Shown in pieces: positions 5,687-45,967 of a stretch of 64,000 nucleotides of DNA; the first letter of the stretch is position 1, and each line of letters opens with the position of its first letter. Origin of the DNA: Thermoguttaceae bacterium (GTDB lineage: Bacteria > Planctomycetota > Planctomycetia > Pirellulales > Thermoguttaceae); the NCBI GenBank assembly GCA_017937485.1, contig JAGBDN010000101.1, forward strand, positions 1 to 64,000, given 5' to 3'. A program made the position numbers and the translations under genes. The notes under the pieces are model-generated. The model saw only the letters and a list, made by a program, of their open reading frames with translations. It was not told the DNA's origin and did no database searches.

Positions 5687-6829
5687 ATGAAACGCAACGT
5701 TTTTTCGCAAGAGTTCGCTTCCCGTCGTTTGCCGTTGGCTTGCGGCGTTTTGACCGCTTGCCTCGTCGGCGGAGGAATCGCCGTCGCGCAAACGAAACAA
5801 CTGAAAGAGCCCGCGGAACCGGTCGCCGCGACCGCCGCCGAAGAGACCGACGACGCGGCTCAAGCCCCCGTCGCCGCCAACGGCTCCTACTCGATCGTCG
5901 TCGAAAGCAAAACCGGCCCGGACGGCAAAACGATTCAAACGAAAAAGGTTTGGCGCGACGGAAAACTTGTTGAAAGCGAAGAAAAAACGCTCGACGGCGA
6001 CGCCGCCGACGCGACGATTCAACTTCCGAACGGCGAAACGGCGCCGGGTCGCGTTTTCCACTTCGACTTCAACGACGACGTTTTCGGCGATTTGGGCGTC
6101 GACGTCTCGCCGTTTGAAGGAATGCGTCGTCTCGAATCGCAAATGCGCGAACACCAAGAGGAAATGCGCGCGCAAATGGAAGAGCTGCGCCGCCGTTTCG
6201 GCGAAAACGCCCCGAACGGTTTCCTCGCGCCGCAAGACGGCGAAATCGCGGCGGCGCCGAGCAAGTACTGGATCGGCGCGACGGTCGAACCGACGCCGGA
6301 ACTCCTCGTCGCGCAACTTCCGATCAACGAAGGCGAAGGCATTTTGCTCCAATACGTCGTTCCGGACTCCCCGGCGGCGAAAGCCGGTTTGCAACGTTTC
6401 GACGTCGTCGTTAAAATCGACGGCGCGCCGATCGCCAACGCCTCCGACGTCGCGAAAATCGTCGACAAAACCGGCGACAAAACCGTTAAAGTCGAATTTT
6501 TCCGCAAAGGCAAGTTGACCGAAACGAAATTAACGCCCGCCGAACGCCCGCAAAACGACGCTCGCCTCGTTCCGTTCGGCGTCCCGAACGGCGGTTCGCG
6601 CTTTCAAATCGTTCGTCCCGGTTTGATCGTTTCGGCGCCGGAAGCTGAAAACGCCGAAGCGAAGCCCGCCGAAGAAACTCCGAAAGCCGAGGAAAACGCC
6701 GAAACGAAACCCGCCGAAGAAGCTCCGAAAGCCGAAGAAAACGCCGAAGCGAAACCCGCCGAGGAAACTCCGAAAGCCGAGGAAAACGCCGAAGCGAAAC
6801 CCGCCGAGGAAGCCCCGAAAGCCGAATAG
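5687..6829 (+). CDS. Exported PDZ-domain protein with repetitive C-terminal tail
   Basis: A 380-residue protein starting at an ATG with a strong Shine-Dalgarno (AAAGGAG). A signal-like hydrophobic segment lies at about 15-32. The middle contains a coiled-coil-like Glu/Arg/Met-rich stretch (about 145-180) and a PDZ domain (about 205-285: GILLQYVVPDSPAAKAGLQRF, a ligand loop, then DKTVKVEFFRKGK). No trypsin-like protease domain precedes the PDZ domain, unlike HtrA/DegP, so it probably binds peptides without cutting them. The last 60 residues are four 15-residue repeats. It lies 104 bases after the anti-sigma-like gene and ends in a clear terminator. Confidence 0.75.
   Translation: MKRNVFSQEFASRRLPLACGVLTACLVGGGIAVAQTKQLKEPAEPVAATAAEETDDAAQAPVAANGSYSIVVESKTGPDGKTIQTKKVWRDGKLVESEEKTLDGDAADATIQLPNGETAPGRVFHFDFNDDVFGDLGVDVSPFEGMRRLESQMREHQEEMRAQMEELRRRFGENAPNGFLAPQDGEIAAAPSKYWIGATVEPTPELLVAQLPINEGEGILLQYVVPDSPAAKAGLQRFDVVVKIDGAPIANASDVAKIVDKTGDKTVKVEFFRKGKLTETKLTPAERPQNDARLVPFGVPNGGSRFQIVRPGLIVSAPEAENAEAKPAEETPKAEENAETKPAEEAPKAEENAEAKPAEETPKAEENAEAKPAEEAPKAE
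6647..6826 (+). repeat. Four tandem 45-bp coding repeats
   Basis: Four in-frame 45-base units encode ENAEAKPAEETPKAE with small variations (T/A at two positions). They form the highly charged Ala/Glu/Pro/Lys tail of the PDZ protein. Such a tail is probably extended and could span periplasm or cell wall. Copy number is expected to vary between strains. Confidence 0.95.
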
Positions 6830-12490: not shown

Positions 12491-14059
12491 TCAAAATTCG
12501 CGGCGCGCCGTCGCCTCGCGATAAACCCGAGCGAACGGAACGCCCGCTTTTCGCGCCGCTTCGTCGACGTCGGCGAACTCCGGCGACTCGGTTAAGATTT
12601 CGCCGTCGAGCGTCGCGCCGACTTTAACGCGAATCGGGCCGAACGACGTTTCGACCGTCTCCCAACGCCGCGCCAACGAACGGCGACGAACGGTCGTTTC
12701 GCGAACGCCGAACGTTCCGGACGTCCGGAAAAACGCGTCGACGACCGCCTCCCGTTTTTCCTCCGCGACGAGAGCGCTCAACTTGCAAGCCGGGCGGCCT
12801 TTTTTCATCAAAATCGGCGTCGTCCAAACGTCGAGGGCTCCGGCGTCGAAAAGCGCGGTCGCGACGGTCGCCAAACGTTCGCCGGTCGCGTCGTCGACGT
12901 TCGTCGCCAACTCGTAAAGCGTTTCGACGTTGTAACGCGCTTCCCAAGCCGCCGACGTTTCCGATTTCGGCGACATGGCGGGCGTTTTTCCGCTTTCTTC
13001 AACGGCGTTATCCGTTTCGTAAATCGACGCGCGCAACAAATTCGGTCGCGTTTCCATCTTCCGCGTTCCGAAGGAGTTGGCGGTCGCGACGATTCGGGCG
13101 CCGGTCGGAATCGCCTTCTTTTCCCAAACGGCGAAGAGCGCGGCGGCGGTCGGCGTCAACATTTCGCAACGCTCGTTATCGGAGGAGGTCGGGAGTCCGT
13201 AATTCCGCAACAAAATCGACGTCGCGGGCGCCGGAAGCGGGTAGACGCCGTGCGCGCAGCGGAACGTTCCCTCGCCGACCGGAAGCGGCGACAGCGAAAT
13301 CCCGTCGACGCCGAGCGCGTTCAACGCCAAAACGCAACCGACCGTGTCGACCAACGAATCGACCGCGCCGACTTCGTGAAAATGGACTTCGTCGACCGGT
13401 TTTTGGTGCGCCTCCGCCTCCGCGACCGCCAACGCTTCGAAGGCGGCGATCGCGTCGCGCTTCGTTTTCTCGTCGAGCGGCGACTCCGCGATCATTTGCC
13501 GAATCGACGCGAACGTCCGCCCGTGAACGTGTTCGTGCGAATGCGAGTGGTCGTGTTTATGCTCGTGATCGTGTTTATGCTCGTGGTCGTGTTTATGATC
13601 GTGATCGTGTTTATGATCGTGATCGTGTTTATGATCGTGATCGCGGTCGTGTATATGACCGTGTTCGTGTTTATGCTCGTGATCGCGTTTGTGACCGTGT
13701 TCGTGCTCGTGATCGTGATCGTCGTCGCGTTTGCGCTTGCATTTGCGTTCGCGTTTATCTTTGCGTTTGCAAACGCATTCGCAAGTCGGATCGCCGTCGG
13801 GGTTGCGCTTGCAAACGCAGGCGAAACGTTCTTCGCAAACGGCGCATTCGTCGTCCGCCGTCGGATTCAAGTCGACCGTCAAATAAACGCCGGTCGCGCC
13901 GAACTCCGACTTTTCGCCGACTTTTAAGGAAAAGGAATCGGGAATCAAACGGCGCAATTCCCGTTCGATATATCGCGGGTCGACGCCTAAACCGACCAAC
14001 GCGCCCAAAATCATATCGCCGGACGCGCCGCCGACGCTGTCGAATCGCAAAATTTTCAT
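12491..14059 (-). CDS. larC: LarC-type nickel insertion protein with Cys- and His-rich insertion
   Basis: LarC (pyridinium-3,5-bisthiocarboxylate mononucleotide nickel insertion protein) inserts Ni into the pincer cofactor of lactate racemase-type enzymes. The start MKILRFDSVGGASGDMILGA is diagnostic, and later motifs such as VHFHEVGAVDSLVD and AHGVYPLPAPAT fit. The reading frame is continuous, whereas some LarC genes need a frameshift between two segments. At 522 residues it is long because residues 71-180 form an insertion: eight Cys in 72-107 (CAVC, CVC, CECVC, C), then about 31 His in 115-179 alternating with Asp, Glu and Lys. LarB, LarE and LarA are not in the window. Confidence 0.9.
   Translation of the reverse strand: MKILRFDSVGGASGDMILGALVGLGVDPRYIERELRRLIPDSFSLKVGEKSEFGATGVYLTVDLNPTADDECAVCEERFACVCKRNPDGDPTCECVCKRKDKRERKCKRKRDDDHDHEHEHGHKRDHEHKHEHGHIHDRDHDHKHDHDHKHDHDHKHDHEHKHDHEHKHDHSHSHEHVHGRTFASIRQMIAESPLDEKTKRDAIAAFEALAVAEAEAHQKPVDEVHFHEVGAVDSLVDTVGCVLALNALGVDGISLSPLPVGEGTFRCAHGVYPLPAPATSILLRNYGLPTSSDNERCEMLTPTAAALFAVWEKKAIPTGARIVATANSFGTRKMETRPNLLRASIYETDNAVEESGKTPAMSPKSETSAAWEARYNVETLYELATNVDDATGERLATVATALFDAGALDVWTTPILMKKGRPACKLSALVAEEKREAVVDAFFRTSGTFGVRETTVRRRSLARRWETVETSFGPIRVKVGATLDGEILTESPEFADVDEAARKAGVPFARVYREATARREF
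13523..13717 (-). repeat. Degenerate 6- to 18-bp repeats encoding a His-rich tract
   Basis: Short units read on the minus strand as CAT/CAC-GAT/GAC-CAT-AAA and encode H-D-H-K/H-E-H-K patterns inside larC. They are coding simple repeats, not a CRISPR array. Confidence 0.9.
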
Positions 14060-43787: not shown

Positions 43788-45053
43788 TCAACCCGCCGCG
43801 CCGCTCCAAGCGAAACTTTCGAGCAACGACTTCACGACGAGCGTCCAACCGTCCGACAAAACAAACAACGCCAATTTAAAAGGAAGCGAAACGACGGTCG
43901 GCGGAAGCATCATCATTCCGGTCGAGACCAAAACCGACGAAACGACGACGTCGATAATCAAAAACGGAATCAAAACTTGAAAACCGATCAAAAACGCCGT
44001 TTTTAACTCGCTTAACAAAAACGCCGGAGCGAGCGCGCGCCAAGGCACGTCTTCGTAAAACTCCGGGTTTTCCTTACCGGGTATAAATTGCGTAAACACG
44101 CCGATCGTTTCAACGTTCCCAGTTTTCTCAATTTGACGCCAAAGGAAGGCGCGAATCGGCGCTTGGCCGCGTTGAAACGCTTCCGCGTTCGAAATTTGCC
44201 CCTCGGAATAAGGCGCGACGGCGGTCTCGTAAACCTCCGACCAAACCGGCGCCATTATTAATAAGGACAAAAAGACGGCCAACGCCGCGATCGTTTGATT
44301 CGACGGAACCTGCCCCGCCCCGATTCCTTGCCGCAAGAGCGACAAAACGACCGAAATCCGAACGAAAGACGTCGTCGCCAACAAAATCGCCGGCGCGACC
44401 GCTAAAATCGAAAAAGTCAACAGCGTTTTCAACGAGGTCGCGACGCTTTCGCGCCCGAACCAACCGTTCGGGCCTTGCGCCCAAAAATTCGTTTTTTCGT
44501 CGCCGCCGTCAAACTCGATTTCTTCCGACGCGCCCTTTGCGTTCGTCGCCGATCGCTCGACTTTTTCCGTCTCATTTTCGGCGACAGGCCGCGAAACTTG
44601 CCCGGCGTTCCCGGTTTCCGACGAACGCGAAACTTGTCCGGCGTTCCCGGCTTCCGACGAACGCGAAACTTGCCCGGCGTTCCCGGTTTCCGACGAACGC
44701 GAAACTTGTCCGGCGTTCCCGGCTTCCGACGAACGCGAAACTTGTCCGGCGTTCCCAGTTTCCGCGGAACGCGACGCCTTCCCGGCTTCGGTCTTCGTTA
44801 CAGGTTGCGCGATTTCGCCGGTTTCAACGGGAGCCGCGCCGTTATAATCGTTATAAAAGTCCAACTCGGTCGCGTCGACGCCCAGCGTCGCCTTGCCGGA
44901 GCGCTCCGTTTCAACCGCCGACGGAATCGCGGAGTTTTCTTGCGCCGACGCGTCCCCCACGAACGCCGCGACAATCGCGAACGCCGCGACGACGCCCCGG
45001 AAAAACGCCGCCGCTTTCGCTTTTTCCTCTTTGATTTTTCGCGTTTTTTTCAT
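43788..45053 (-). CDS. fliP: Flagellar export-gate protein FliP with repeat insertion
   Basis: Core subunit of the flagellar type III export gate. From the ATG at 45051-45053 it has 421 residues, about 170 more than usual. The C-terminal 230 residues are canonical FliP: LLTFSILAVAPAILLATTSF, RISVVLSLLRQGIGAGQVPSN, LSELKTAFLIGFQVLIPFLI and STGMMMLPPTVVSLPFKL. The N-terminal part has a signal peptide (to about 38) and a low-complexity region with five 12-residue repeats before the first gate helix. The start codon overlaps the fliO stop (TAATG), implying translational coupling. Confidence 0.93.
   Translation of the reverse strand: MKKTRKIKEEKAKAAAFFRGVVAAFAIVAAFVGDASAQENSAIPSAVETERSGKATLGVDATELDFYNDYNGAAPVETGEIAQPVTKTEAGKASRSAETGNAGQVSRSSEAGNAGQVSRSSETGNAGQVSRSSEAGNAGQVSRSSETGNAGQVSRPVAENETEKVERSATNAKGASEEIEFDGGDEKTNFWAQGPNGWFGRESVATSLKTLLTFSILAVAPAILLATTSFVRISVVLSLLRQGIGAGQVPSNQTIAALAVFLSLLIMAPVWSEVYETAVAPYSEGQISNAEAFQRGQAPIRAFLWRQIEKTGNVETIGVFTQFIPGKENPEFYEDVPWRALAPAFLLSELKTAFLIGFQVLIPFLIIDVVVSSVLVSTGMMMLPPTVVSLPFKLALFVLSDGWTLVVKSLLESFAWSGAAG
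44591..44770 (-). repeat. Five tandem 36-bp coding repeats in fliP
   Basis: Five direct 36-base units begin at 44591, 44627, 44663, 44699 and 44735. They encode S-R-S-S-E-A/T-G-N-A-G-Q-V. The last unit is the most diverged. They lie inside the reading frame and are not spaced like a CRISPR array. Confidence 0.95.
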
Positions 45054-45967
45054 TATCGCCGCCCTTCCGCTTTGAACGCCGTTCGCCAAACGCTCGCCGC
45101 GGCGCGCCCTCGTCGCCAAATCGCCGCCGCTTTTGCGCCGACGTCGCCGGTCGCCGCCGTTTCCTTTCGTCGTTCAATCTCCGCCAACATCGCGTTCGCC
45201 TCCTCGAAGTCGGCAATTTCGGCAAGCGGCGCAATCTTTTCCGGCGTTTTAGCCGCTAAAATCAACCTATTTCCCCAACGTATCGTCAGAAGGCGAGCTT
45301 TATCGCCGACGGCCAACGAGTCGACCACTTCCAACGCGCTCCCGACGCCGCCGTTTTTTACTCCCGTCCGCCTCAAAAGAGCGACCAACGCGAAAAAAGC
45401 GCCCAAAACGACCGCCAACGCGCCGAACGTCGAGACCAACGCGTTCCCCAACGAACCGCCGTTGCGTTTCGCGGAAGTCGGCTCGTCCCGCAAAATCGGC
45501 GTTTTCGACCGCGACGCGTCTTCGCCGTTTTTCGCCGTTTCTCCATTTTCACCGTTTGTCGCAACCGGCGTTTCCGGAGTCGGCGTTTCGACCGGTCGCT
45601 CGACGCTTAAAGGCGCCGCGTCGGGTTCGCTCCAAGCGACAAGCCGCGTTTCCCCGTCGACCGCGCTTTTGCGTTCGTTAAAATCGGCGTTTAAAAAATA
45701 ATCGGCAAAACTCGCCGATTCGACGCGATTTCTCGCCGCCGTCGCGTCGCTCTCGCCGACGACTTTCGGCGCCCCCGCAAAACCGTTTTTTTCGTTAATC
45801 TCGCTCGTTGAAACGGCGTTCGCTCCCCAACGCGGCCAAAATCCGCCGTTCTCGTTCGCCGTCGCGCCGTTCTCGAAAATCGCGACGAAAAACGCCGCCG
45901 CGCCAACGACCGCGACGCCCGTTCCAACGCTTATTTTTCGCCGTTTTGCTCGCTTTATTTTACGCAT
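45053..45967 (-). CDS. fliO: Flagellar biosynthesis protein FliO
   Basis: FliO assists assembly of the FliP ring. The 304-residue protein (start at 45967; an upstream TTG would add eight residues) has a signal/anchor near residue 15-30, a long low-complexity exported stretch and a second membrane segment about 170-190 (STFGALAVVLGAFFALVALL). The FliO domain follows: LEVVDSLAVGDKARLLTIRWG, NRLILAAKTPE. It is first in the fliO-fliP-fliQ operon behind a sigma-70-like promoter. Longer than typical FliO because of the exported stretch. Confidence 0.85.
   Translation of the reverse strand: MRKIKRAKRRKISVGTGVAVVGAAAFFVAIFENGATANENGGFWPRWGANAVSTSEINEKNGFAGAPKVVGESDATAARNRVESASFADYFLNADFNERKSAVDGETRLVAWSEPDAAPLSVERPVETPTPETPVATNGENGETAKNGEDASRSKTPILRDEPTSAKRNGGSLGNALVSTFGALAVVLGAFFALVALLRRTGVKNGGVGSALEVVDSLAVGDKARLLTIRWGNRLILAAKTPEKIAPLAEIADFEEANAMLAEIERRKETAATGDVGAKAAAIWRRGRAAASVWRTAFKAEGRR

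Follow-up and report, generated by a model that had tools for sequence, protein, structure and literature searches.

A histidine-rich insert preceded by a cysteine module in LarC of a Thermoguttaceae gut bacterium, probably an accessory nickel-binding loop

The window that we analysed, a 64,000-nucleotide stretch of contig JAGBDN010000101.1 from a Thermoguttaceae bacterium, contains on its minus strand a larC gene (12491..14059) that codes for a 522-aa protein in which LarC1 and LarC2 are joined in a single reading frame. LarC is the nickel insertase, a cyclometallase, of the pathway that makes the nickel-pincer nucleotide. Congruently with the initial annotation, which had called the protein LarC, the gene product matched the Pfam profile PF01969 (E 1e-113, 380 bits) and the NCBIfam models TIGR00299 for LarC1 (175 bits, cut-off 90) and NF052512 for LarC2 (137 bits, cut-off 50), all above their cut-offs. 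The N-terminal core (13865..14059, minus strand, residues 1-65) includes the conserved GASGDM region and was modelled with a pLDDT of 94-97 at residues 1-60; the rest of the protein (12494..13519, minus strand, residues 181-522) carries the TIGR00299 match at residues 181-345 and LarC2 at 382-498. In the AlphaFold model, for which 49 LarC sequences were used as input, the pLDDT of the LarC core was mostly >90, and Foldseek matched the LarC2 part to 6bwo/6bwq (TMt 0.88-0.90, E 2e-14). The gene product is a genuine LarC with intact core domains. CTP-dependent nickel insertion has been reported for the LarC of L. plantarum and Moorella (PMC11796402).

Between the two core segments lies a metal-ligand insert (13520..13864, minus strand, residues 66-180), whose metal binding is predicted from its composition. 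It begins with a Cys module (13724..13864, minus strand, residues 66-112) that has its eight Cys at residues 72-107 (nt 13739-13846) in the arrangement CxxC-x5-CxC-x9-CxCxC-x9-C and includes the basic linker KRKDKRERKCKRKRD, and continues with a His tract (13523..13717, minus strand, residues 115-179) made mostly of (HDHKHD)n and encoded by an 18-bp tandem repeat (13547..13722, no strand assigned) of 9.4 copies with 81% matches. Translation confirmed the eight Cys and about 31 His originally noted in residues 71-180 (13520-13849): the Cys are residues 72, 75, 81, 83, 93, 95, 97 and 107, the only others in LarC being 242, 268, 298 and 425, and exactly 31 His lie between residues 115 and 179. 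With a binomial model using the Cys and His frequency of this LarC outside the insert (0.97% each), the chance of finding eight Cys in 36 residues is ~2e-9 and that of 31 His in 65 residues ~1e-44; given the rest of LarC, neither density is a chance event. Two other candidates in this region were discarded, namely a plus-strand ORF at 13250-13927, which is the hydrophobic mirror of the His codons, and weak Zip, U2AF and TRK matches, which arise from the composition of the His tract.

In the AlphaFold model the insert (residues 66-180) has a pLDDT of ~40-55 and shows no more than weak strands close to the CxC motifs, so that it is predicted to be a disordered segment between two well-predicted core segments. 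A solved LarC structure, chain 12bi, lacks the insert, its sequence across this site being VQVTGS-QPHRHL, and LarCs from the family and order of this bacterium have only ~6 residues there. Because these insertless LarCs run straight across the site we consider the loop accessory, and since many LarCs do without an insert it is dispensable for catalysis. When a 56-aa piece containing the Cys module was modelled in isolation it gave a helix plus a beta-hairpin (residues 19-25 and 31-37, block pLDDT 69-76), at the low overall confidence of a mean pLDDT of 61 and a pTM of 0.36, and a Foldseek search with this model found no match under E 2.5. Neither Pfam profiles nor Foldseek matched the module to a zinc ribbon or other Cys-metal domain; the best Pfam profile, Metallothio_5, reached 9.3 bits (cut-off 25, E 1.7), which does not make it a metallothionein.

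To place the insert among its relatives we compared 135 LarCs, comprising those of congeners, of the same family and order, of same-phylum members with long inserts picked by match length, and hits from an 84,980-species collection found partly by His-tract patterns; the sample is biased towards inserts and gives no prevalence. In 84 of them, from Bacillota, Desulfovibrionales, Verrucomicrobiota, archaea and others, at least 9 His occupy the insert site, in inserts that are very variable. The window LarC belongs to this His-rich subgroup, its insert following the N-terminal core and preceding the HGRT/HRxL helix. A His-rich loop is thus an ordinary, recurrent feature of LarC in many phyla, in line with the earlier statement that such loops are known in this protein. 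That statement had been coupled to the claim that an adjacent Cys module is unusual, and the comparison of homologues bears it out: four or more Cys next to the His tract were found in 5/11 LarCs of the genus and in 0/73 His-rich LarCs outside it (Fisher p 1.5e-5, a value that overstates the evidence, as the congeners are related). The Cys module is uncommon in LarC, and within the compared set a Cys cluster is confined to the window's genus. His or Cys tracts in LarC are nowhere described in the open-access literature that we searched, a body that does not include two original LarC papers.

The window's genus consists of Thermoguttaceae gut MAGs, of which we searched 20 genomes for the module and compared 11 LarCs. 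The exact 8-Cys module is present in 3/20 genomes, those of the sister species G000 (the window genome), G016 and G011, always in LarC and nowhere else. All eight Cys are invariant across the three species, and one Cys codon has changed synonymously. Throughout the 47-codon module synonymous changes per site exceed nonsynonymous ones (Fisher p 0.0004, 0.029 and 0.005 for three sister-species pairs that are not independent of each other), with a dN/dS of ~0.16-0.24 versus ~0.05-0.10 for most core comparisons. The few variable positions never fall on a Cys, a pattern that alone is not significant. The Cys module is therefore under protein-level purifying selection, although less constrained than the core, and this pattern together with the invariance of the eight Cys shows that the reading frame is real. 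Beside the constrained module the His tract turns over by repeat expansion. We also considered as a DNA site a 16-bp perfect palindrome, TGCGTTTGCAAACGCA, which encodes one CVCKR and recurs with a single mismatch at the second CVCKR; since it is absent elsewhere in the genome and the perfect copy is broken synonymously in both sister species, we rejected this and regard it as a codon by-product.

Outside these three species the loop takes other forms. The close sister G010 has eight Cys in a layout differing from the module, the G002 LarC has six Cys scattered among the His, that of G005 (L100) shows CC, CC and CxC before its sequence ends at the contig end, and that of G008 has no Cys in the insert; the genus thus has four Cys layouts or more, namely those of G000/G016/G011, of G010, of G002 and of G005. 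Among the 11 congeners the insert ranges from 23 to 121 residues, with 9-31 His and 0-10 Cys, and in 11/11 of them the loop is rich in His and acidic residues at any length. Either Cys were recruited beside the His tract more than once in the genus or the loop was reshaped fast, and the module is a recent addition within the genus, a lineage-specific variant of a known theme. In several MAGs (L098, L099, L100, L101 and L109) a contig end interrupts LarC inside or beside the His tract, as is expected if the repeat breaks short-read assembly.

In the LarC tree, whose long branches call for caution, the LarC of the genus is not sister to those of its own family and order. Instead, it groups with LarCs from two MAGs, one of Kiritimatiellae from goat rumen and one of Verrucomicrobia (L111 and L113; support 100/99), relatives that also carry His-rich inserts, and a constraint placing it with its own family and order was rejected (AU p 0.0004). 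The simplest reading of the tree is that an insertless LarC was probably replaced horizontally by a His-loop LarC.

None of the neighbours of larC, which we take by eye from the sequence to be a UvrA-like protein, a beta-lactamase-family hydrolase, HisG, HisI and ValRS, is a lar gene. The initial annotation had pointed to larA, larB and larE as possible companions elsewhere in the genome, with LarC serving a lactate racemase cofactor. All three homologues are indeed present: profile searches detected LarB (243 bits), LarE (231 bits) and a LarA-family protein (L095:2319-3731). The lactate racemase part gained no support, as the last fits NF052594, 'nickel-dependent putative hexonate epimerase' (549 bits, E 5e-165), far better than lactate racemase (only 25). 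The nickel-pincer pathway looks complete in this genome, and the profile match suggests that the window LarC most likely serves a sugar-acid epimerase. A search for other nickel enzymes, limited to [NiFe]-hydrogenase and urease, found no [NiFe]-hydrogenase large subunit and no urease in the 20 genomes of the genus, so that the nickel use we detected is that of the pincer cofactor. The LarE of this genome (L097:2117-3073) has a CxxC plus a distant Cys (CYWC...NPC), an arrangement that PMC9283937 reports for LarE of the [4Fe-4S] type as opposed to the sacrificial one.

From its composition, its place in the protein and the analogy with SlyD and HspA, the insert is probably an accessory loop, intrinsically disordered and able to bind metal, that brings Ni(II) together at LarC. 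The His tract would bind several Ni(II) ions loosely, the thiolates of the Cys module would hold Ni(II), or possibly Zn(II), with higher affinity, and nickel would thereby be concentrated beside the active site, from where LarC would insert it into the pyridinium-bisthiocarboxylate precursor. We infer in this way the binding of nickel by the loop, its storage or feeding, the affinity added by the Cys part, the identity of the metal and its transfer. A point against this reading is that Cys/His sites often bind Zn(II) or Cu(I) in preference to Ni(II). The open-access literature that we read does not address the nickel source of LarC.

The closest counterparts are the His-rich LarCs of other bacteria and archaea (PF01969), which share the enzyme, the insertion site and a His/Asp/Glu-rich loop of similar length but not the compact, conserved module of eight Cys. 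The tail of E. coli SlyD has 13 His and 6 Cys and binds up to 7 Ni (PMC7840056, PMC7055735); like the LarC insert, judged by the composition and predicted disorder of the latter, it is a disordered, species-variable segment of mixed His, Cys and acidic residues on a nickel-maturation factor, but it is the C-terminal tail of a prolyl isomerase/chaperone, whereas in LarC the segment lies inside the protein and keeps its Cys apart from its His. In H. pylori the His/Cys-rich C-terminal extension of HspA sequesters nickel (PMC7840056), a function that the LarC insert may share; both are lineage-specific additions to a housekeeping protein, HspA being a GroES chaperonin and LarC a cofactor-synthesis enzyme. 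The N-terminal motif of E. coli HypB (Cys2, Cys5 and Cys7; PMC7055735) is a thiolate-rich nickel site with CxxCxC spacing on a nickel-insertion protein, and the module would be another such thiolate-rich site; HypB differs in using three Cys plus the N-terminal amine and in being a GTPase unrelated to LarC. According to the accessible text of one report, the RcnA of cable bacteria has an expanded His loop of 100-123 aa with 33-53 His (PMC11247825), likewise a lineage-specific expansion in a nickel protein; RcnA is a membrane exporter and that text describes no Cys module in its loop, unlike LarC.

The repeat that encodes the His tract, the spread of loop lengths in the genus, the LarCs that lack an insert and the tandem-repeat segments of two other window proteins would all fit a near-neutral low-complexity expansion at a permissive site, in which metal ligands arise readily by drift of the 18-bp repeat and the loop itself does little. 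This is unlikely as a full account, as it sits poorly with the His and acidic richness kept by every congener whatever the loop length, with the same solution in many phyla and with purifying selection on the Cys module, but growth of the His tract by the repeat could be partly neutral. Only slightly less credible is that the module is a discrete thiolate site in tandem with a His nickel buffer, which would either pass nickel from weak His to tight Cys sites and on to the cyclometallation site or report loading; if true, it would be a two-stage nickel relay built into a nickel insertase.

It is still more doubtful that the module forms a small thiolate site for zinc with a structural or regulatory role, apart from the His nickel buffer, through which the first part of the loop would be folded or LarC gated; this would be a real two-mode element or sensor. 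The CxxC/CxC/CxCxC spacing, the Cys invariant in three species and the helix and hairpin of the isolated model agree with such a site; the low confidence of that model, the failure to match any fold or Pfam family and the different form found in the close sister G010 argue against it. The two-mode metal store or sensor of the initial annotation gained no support beyond plausibility: the module is limited to three sister species and has no recognisable fold, congeners that have this enzyme show different arrangements of Cys or hardly any Cys, and mixed His/Cys tails were already known on SlyD and HspA. A sensor role is possible, and nothing in our analysis points to it. Finally, the metallothionein-like CxC and CxxC motifs and the capacity of His and Cys to bind many metals might suggest a general sink for excess Zn, Cu, Co or Ni instead of a feed for the insertase; this is very unlikely, since a nickel enzyme of presumably low abundance would be a poor place for a bulk sink, the loop sits at one fixed site of LarC and the module is found nowhere else in the 20 genomes.

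For the preferred reading, a loop that concentrates nickel, the genus offers a natural series of one enzyme varying at one site in His and Cys number, a ready test set for asking if nickel affinity or the rate of insertion depends on the ligands in the loop; otherwise it would extend by a small step what is known of nickel chaperones with His/Cys tails.

Elsewhere in the window, a PDZ-like protein (by eye; 5687-6829) terminates in four copies of a 45-bp repeat with a high content of E, A, P and K, and a protein resembling FliP (by eye; 43788-45119) contains a 36-bp, 5-copy repeat, SRSSETGNAGQV, in its N-terminal part.
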